Below are positions 29,911 to 30,408 of a stretch of 33,877 nt of DNA, in pieces. The notes under the pieces are model-generated. The model worked only from the letters and a program-made list of their open reading frames with translations, was not told where the DNA came from and did no database searches. Every line of letters starts with the position of its first letter. Positions within the stretch are counted from its first letter, which is position 1. Both the position numbers and the translations under genes were made by a program. Location: positions 1 to 33,877 of the forward strand of contig JAEEUW010000015.1 of assembly GCA_016290665.1 (NCBI GenBank), written 5' to 3'. This DNA is from Clostridiaceae bacterium. Its GTDB lineage: Bacteria > Bacillota > Clostridia > Oscillospirales > Acutalibacteraceae.

Positions 29911-29939
29911 TTGACAAACGGCAAAAAGCCTGCTATGAT
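29911..29939 (+). promoter_or_regulatory. Consensus sigma70 promoter for the riboswitch transcript
   Basis: TTGACA - 17 nt - TATGAT. Confidence 0.8.
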
Positions 29940-29945
29940 AAAGGT

Positions 29946-30076
29946 AACCTATAAAGAGTGCGCGAGGGACAAGCCCGTTGACCGCACAGCAACCTGCCGG
30001 AAGGTAAGGTGCTAACGCTTGACCGATGGGTGCCAGAAAGCCGCAGACATCCCGTCGGAACGATGGGGTGTTTTTT
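29946..30076 (+). ncRNA. S-box-like SAM riboswitch (SAM-I or SAM-I/IV variant) with intrinsic terminator
   Basis: AGAGTGCGcGAGGGACaaGCCCgtTGAccGCACAGCAACC...AAGGTGCTAA matches the S-box P2 / K-turn / P3 core: P2 GTGCG/CGCAC, GGG/CCC, P3 ACCTGCC-ggaa-GGTaAGGT. Then ACATCCCGTCG-gaa-CGATGGGGTGT TTTTT (11-bp stem plus T-run). Confidence 0.82.
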
Positions 30077-30120
30077 CGTACCGCTCTTTTAGGGAATACT
30101 TGTAAAGAGAGGTACCTCTT

Positions 30121-30375
30121 ATGAAAAACATTCTGCACGCACTTGAACAACATGCATCCGTTTTTGTTGAGCTGCCGGACACGGCCGCCGGCGAACGCTT
30201 TCAGCGCGAAGCTAGCGCCGCCGGATTCCGCTTCGGCGACGGGGCAAAACCAACCGAACGCGACATGGGCCGGGTCATGGCCGTACACGCGGACCGCACC
30301 GTCGCCTTTCCCGGCATCTGCGGCCATATTGCGTGTCAGTGCGGCGCGAAACCGGTCATCCGGTTTGAAAACTGA
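30121..30375 (+). CDS. 84-aa uncharacterised protein under S-box control
   Basis: MKNILHALEQHASVFVELPDTAAGERFQREASAAGFRFGDGAKPTERDMGRVMAVHADRTVAFPGICGHIACQCGAKPVIRFEN. RBS within palindrome AGAGGTACCTCT; first gene after the riboswitch. Confidence 0.75.
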   Translation: MKNILHALEQHASVFVELPDTAAGERFQREASAAGFRFGDGAKPTERDMGRVMAVHADRTVAFPGICGHIACQCGAKPVIRFEN

Positions 30376-30379
30376 CCCC

Positions 30380-30408
30380 TTGCAGGATGGGCCGCCGTGT
30401 GCTATAAT
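30380..30408 (+). promoter_or_regulatory. Sigma70-type promoter of the beta-propeller gene
   Basis: TTGCAG - 17 nt - TATAAT. Confidence 0.6.

Follow-up and report, generated by a model that had tools for sequence, protein, structure and literature searches.

Among the SAM-binding riboswitches described so far, SAM-IV is also built without helix P4 (PMC6890682), a part of the SAM-I (S-box) model RF00162. Dual attenuation of transcription and translation is a recognized category, in which the terminator includes the ribosome-binding site (PMC2258182), and a phage-borne metabolite riboswitch is represented by the glutamine riboswitch of phage Melnitz (PMC9004378). Neither a SAM-I aptamer lacking P4 nor its pairing with a gene like the one described below was found in the literature, of which open-licence papers were covered, so that this result is weak evidence. 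The window, that is, the whole 33,877-nucleotide stretch of DNA analyzed, contains a variant of the known SAM-I riboswitch with a well-supported target gene family, and this is what is new here.

The features of the locus are collected in Table 1. The promoter proposed in the earlier note was recovered by the pattern scan; it is a strong one, and a TG precedes its -10 box. The terminator described there was also present as a hairpin followed by a T-run, and folding gave a stem of 13 bp (hairpin 30047-30071). It was absent from the output of a simple terminator scan, probably due to the stem continuing into the T-run. The next gene had been credited with a promoter of its own; its TATAAT was found at 30403-30408, but only 3 of 6 positions of the -35 box matched and the scan did not list a promoter. 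A similar stretch lies upstream of the same gene in three relatives. No known methionine gene follows the 84-aa open reading frame (ORF) within the window, in agreement with the earlier reading, and the S-box and its gene are surrounded there by ordinary chromosomal genes.

Table 1. Features of the riboswitch locus, with positions in the window
Feature	Position	Strand	Basis or predicted role
Promoter TTGACA-17-TATGAT	29911..29939	+	Pattern scan, 11/12 matches; 0.3 expected in shuffles
Aptamer 5' strand (P1 5' side and start of P2), complementary also to 30082-30094	29943..29958	+	Swap test
P4-less SAM-I aptamer (P1, P2 with kink-turn region, P3, pseudoknot)	29945..30032	+	RF00162, subtype model R1, covariation
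First repeat CCGATGGGTGCC	30023..30034	+	Putative role as P1 3' strand when SAM is bound and as 5' strand of the antiterminator otherwise; free fold of the leader and forced alternative
Intrinsic terminator hairpin and T-run	30047..30076	+	Fold; read directly in the sequence
Element CGCTCTTTTAGGG, partner of the Shine-Dalgarno region or the aptamer 5' strand	30082..30094	+	
Shine-Dalgarno region AAAGAGAGG	30104..30112	+	Read directly
84-aa ORF, small alpha/beta protein	30121..30375	+	Homologs; predicted fold

The claim that the leader is S-box-like was borne out by cmscan, in which RF00162 matched positions 29946-30069 (+) significantly, with 61.8 bits against a gathering score of 44.4 and an E value of 3.3e-12. 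The two other SAM families suggested for comparison did not apply. RF01725 (SAM-I/IV) reached 26 bits, below its gathering threshold of 41.1, and RF00634 (SAM-IV) gave no match anywhere in the genome, scores too low for a SAM-IV or SAM-I/IV identity, which was ruled out. In an alignment of 39 aptamers, used as the structure test, P1, P2, P3 and the loop-junction pseudoknot were paired in 95.7% of the cells, and both sides had changed in 15 of the 28 pairs, compared to 5.7 in shuffles. All four pairs of the pseudoknot covaried, the variants seen being CAAG/CUUG, CAGA/UCUG, CAGC/GCUG and UGUC/GGCA.

Helix P4 of RF00162 is lacking: only about 3 nt separate the pseudoknot strand from the P1 3' strand that comes after it, too few for a further helix. 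Because SAM-IV binds SAM without P4, we treat its loss as a subtype difference within SAM-I. A model of the subtype set these P4-less S-boxes apart from canonical ones in 391 genomes, with 23 hits of at least 75 bits and the next one at 67; with subtype model R1, the window aptamer scored 107.7 bits, being itself among the sequences from which R1 was built. The same genome has a second, canonical S-box at metK, which obtained 44.7 bits with the subtype model. Just before that S-box comes an FMN riboswitch (L001:2418-2581, minus strand), and downstream of it is an ORF for a membrane protein, possibly a riboflavin transporter.

An aptamer without P4 implies that the P1 3' strand is misplaced in the Rfam alignment, which closes P1 with the second of two repeats. 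Most likely this strand is the first GATGGGT (30025-30031), and we read the second copy, GATGGGG, as the 3' strand of the terminator. The first copy is favored by the 8 of 46 leaders in which the second repeat is missing and by the free fold of the window RNA, which closes P1 with the first copy. Counting registers between the P1 5' strand and the two repeats does not alone discriminate between the models, and on average across leaders GATGGGG pairs with the P1 5' strand about equally well; in the window the first repeat pairs far better (-10.7 versus -5.6). The Rfam alignment raises the opposite logic, a SAM-ON switch in which the first repeat and the terminator 5' strand form a long P4, the second repeat provides the P1 3' strand, and SAM prevents the terminator. 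Although cmscan aligns the window in this manner and most leaders allow pairing between the second repeat and the P1 5' strand, the leaders with no second repeat, the repeat pairing and folds of the window, a terminator that is both local and strong, and the OFF logic of the translational element in the same leaders make this arrangement very unlikely.

The first copy, CCGAUGGG, has two possible partners, the P1 5' strand and the terminator 5' strand, CCCGUCGG, which is the classic S-box arrangement. Typical leaders contain a second element, CUCUUUAUAGG, which corresponds to 30082-30094 in the window and shows complementarity to the aptamer 5' strand, CCUAUAAAGAG, as well as to the Shine-Dalgarno sequence. 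From these computed pairings we infer OFF logic and two levels of control. With SAM bound, the first GATGGGT would close P1 and block the antiterminator, whereupon the terminator would fold and transcription would stop; should the polymerase read through, the aptamer 5' strand would be buried in P1/P2, and 30082-30094 would mask the Shine-Dalgarno and block translation. Without SAM, the first GATGGGT would pair with the terminator 5' strand as an antiterminator, and the freed aptamer 5' strand would capture 30082-30094 and open the Shine-Dalgarno, so that the small protein would be made when SAM is scarce. We put at about 0.78 the probability that this P4-less SAM-I riboswitch represses one small gene under plentiful SAM by such two-level OFF control.

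The minimum-energy fold of the window leader was the complete repressed state (-67.2 kcal/mol), and when the antiterminator was forced (-61.9 kcal/mol), the aptamer 5' strand was paired to the element. The aptamer 5' strands and the native 3' ends of their leaders gave -14.3 kcal/mol, compared to -13.1 kcal/mol for swapped ones (0 of 2000 permutations as stable), a test in which shared ancestry remains, and to -8.6 kcal/mol for dinucleotide-shuffled 3' ends. Pairing of the Shine-Dalgarno, averaged over isolated leader tails, was 84% alone, 56% with the aptamer 5' strand added and 83% with a shuffled strand; in the window the estimate fell from 0.83 to 0.67 with the aptamer 5' strand, a modest effect. 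The locus might also be seen as an ordinary single-level S-box, where transcription attenuation alone counts and the hairpin that masks the Shine-Dalgarno is incidental, given that most leaders have a strong terminator and that transcription attenuation is dominant in Firmicutes (PMC2258182). However, seven leaders with no recognizable terminator (L062, L067, L069, L070, L071, L072 and L087) all keep the second element, so that control there would be translational only, and the complementarity of the element to the aptamer 5' strand is kept through compensating changes (for example, in L078 and L060); we regard the single-level scheme as doubtful. No clear second-level element was seen in L047 and L056.

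For the two-level OFF switch, the ligand would be SAM. Among the SAM-contacting nucleotides, 12 of 14 columns were invariant; the placement of the columns in the crystal numbering, through a background sequence, is provisional. The list of residues near SAM was that of PMC6890682. Members of the subtype precede metK in L113, L114 and L116, which supports SAM as the ligand. Spermidine variants of SAM-I are a precedent for the sensing of another ligand (PMC10853860), and the genes downstream are unusual here. Those variants, however, are altered at SAM-contacting nucleotides, whereas the present pocket is invariant except at two positions, and no polyamine gene occurred among the downstream genes examined; together with the metK loci, this makes a ligand other than SAM improbable.

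Within the genus, eight further genomes have a homolog of the 84-aa ORF, as does a single genome from a different genus. Directly upstream of the gene, 10 of the 11 loci, window included, reached the gathering score of the S-box model. The remaining locus has a degraded copy (L004:1318-1412), in which the 5' part of the S-box, P1/P2, is lost and the terminator and ORF are kept, possibly an unregulated or broken copy. By profile search, with the window's own genome counted, the family was present in 6 of 391 genomes of the class and in 12 of 394 genomes of the order. It was also found in three viral contigs, and with alignment A2, named genome contigs yielded 27 loci, part of which were known from the other sets. 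Merdimonas faecis and Ruminococcus sp. zg-924 are cultivated bacteria that carry the gene. Conservation of the pairing, put forward earlier as a check, was evident across many species: an S-box lay upstream of 48 of 51 non-identical homologs chosen by protein sequence alone, a count that includes the degraded L004 and also L061, cut by the contig end. No S-box was found upstream of L055, L063 and L065. Close relatives differ in this respect, the whole riboswitch being present before the same gene in L062, L067, L069, L070 and L071 and absent in L063 and L065. In the reverse test, an RNA pattern scan of viral contigs returned 28 contigs, and the next gene belonged to the family in 21 of them, several near-identical. 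The significant RF00162 hit, the conserved pairing and the lack of a known methionine gene behind it place the gene, by position, under SAM control, in line with the suggestion that it is an unrecognized SAM-regulated gene. The small proteins, which occur in gut bacteria and in some viruses that infect them, are probably made when the cell is short of SAM.

The 84-aa product is an undescribed small alpha/beta domain whose fold is confidently predicted: the models were compact, with mean pLDDT values of 92.1 for the window protein and 94.8 for that of L054. Conserved residues are centered on GF-F-DG--PT-R. No convincing family match was obtained in Pfam, NCBIfam, PHROGs, PADLOC or PDB sequences, and no fold match in the PDB; the best viral matches were uncharacterized phage proteins, with weak E values near 0.01. 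A defence-system protein was discarded for want of a PADLOC match. No special meaning of the C-H-CxC cluster mentioned in the earlier note was supported: its Cys and His residues are not conserved among the homologs, and a metal site formed by them was ruled out on the same ground. Two copies of the domain, a tandem duplicate, form one chain of about 205 aa in L050:1396-2013 and L051:3001-3615. As to the role of the protein, a tentative and rather unlikely proposal is that it stems from mobile elements and, as an accessory protein, affects a process that consumes SAM, for instance DNA methylation.

By position, the P4-less subtype also controls metK, N-formylglutamate amidohydrolase, ADP-ribosylglycohydrolase and several unrelated small ORFs assigned to no family. 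It stands before N-formylglutamate amidohydrolase genes in L103 (where the gene was tested with PF05013), L105 and L114 (leaders near 1500), and in L114 metK comes next. The literature search returned no link between the S-box and N-formylglutamate amidohydrolase, and we know of none. The other small family-less ORFs preceded by the subtype were those of L096/L106, L097/L125, L092/L129, L108/L111, L109, L112 and L151, some recurring in pairs.

Genes near sampled family members include C5 methylases, an amidoligase, a resolvase and LPD29 domains, which points to a mobile-element context for part of the family; plasmids gave no match. The complete genome of Ruminococcus phage NatCom_28274 has an S-box (105.4 bits) and a family gene, which overlaps a 2229-base gene by 11 bases, tail to tail. 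The latter and the C5 methyltransferase of contig L127 share 99% identity. By tblastn, 14 loci have this methyltransferase next to the family gene, with identities as low as about 49%; some of the loci are near-identical, and one shows only a fragment at a contig end. A fifteenth locus gave a more distant match. On the phage-like contigs L127, L128, L131, L135, L136, L138, L142, L150 and L152, the S-box gene is convergent with a C5 methyltransferase gene, with N6/N4 DNA methyltransferase genes further on. The phage copies may be moron-like genes.

The tail-to-tail overlap in the phage genome would fit a transcript acting as antisense RNA on the convergent gene, with the ORF secondary, a mechanism put forward for a Clostridium acetobutylicum S-box (reviewed in PMC2258182). 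We consider this highly improbable, as the protein is conserved and predicted to fold confidently, and no methyltransferase neighbors the gene in the window or at most bacterial loci. A speculative extension, which we hold to be possible rather than likely, is that a P4-less SAM-I lineage travelling with mobile elements and phages senses the SAM of the host on behalf of small accessory proteins. Temperate gut phages would in this way couple a moron-like gene to DNA methyltransferases of their own, the protein or its antisense transcript adjusting methylation at low host SAM.

With these results, a broad family of uncharacterized small proteins joins the SAM-controlled genes, together with a first expression condition to test, and a smaller natural SAM-I aptamer is described in which P4 appears dispensable. 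The finding of a SAM sensor beside DNA methyltransferases in a complete gut phage genome also allows a test of whether phage accessory genes are linked to the SAM level of the host.

Compared to SAM-I of RF00162, the riboswitch shares P1, P2 with the kink-turn region, P3, the pseudoknot, the pocket nucleotides and the antiterminator/terminator exchange, but has no P4, places the P1 3' strand about 3 nt after the pseudoknot strand, carries an extra, putatively translational element and precedes a gene that is not a methionine or SAM gene. The SAM pocket is common to SAM-IV (RF00634) and SAM-I/IV (RF01725), whereas here the scores are below the cut-off or absent, the P3 loop is short and no room was seen for the second pseudoknot of SAM-IV. 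As in dual attenuation, one leader is predicted to affect both termination and ribosome binding; in contrast to that category, a separate element after the terminator would swap with the aptamer 5' strand. From the glutamine riboswitch of phage Melnitz, it differs in ligand class, host group and target gene.
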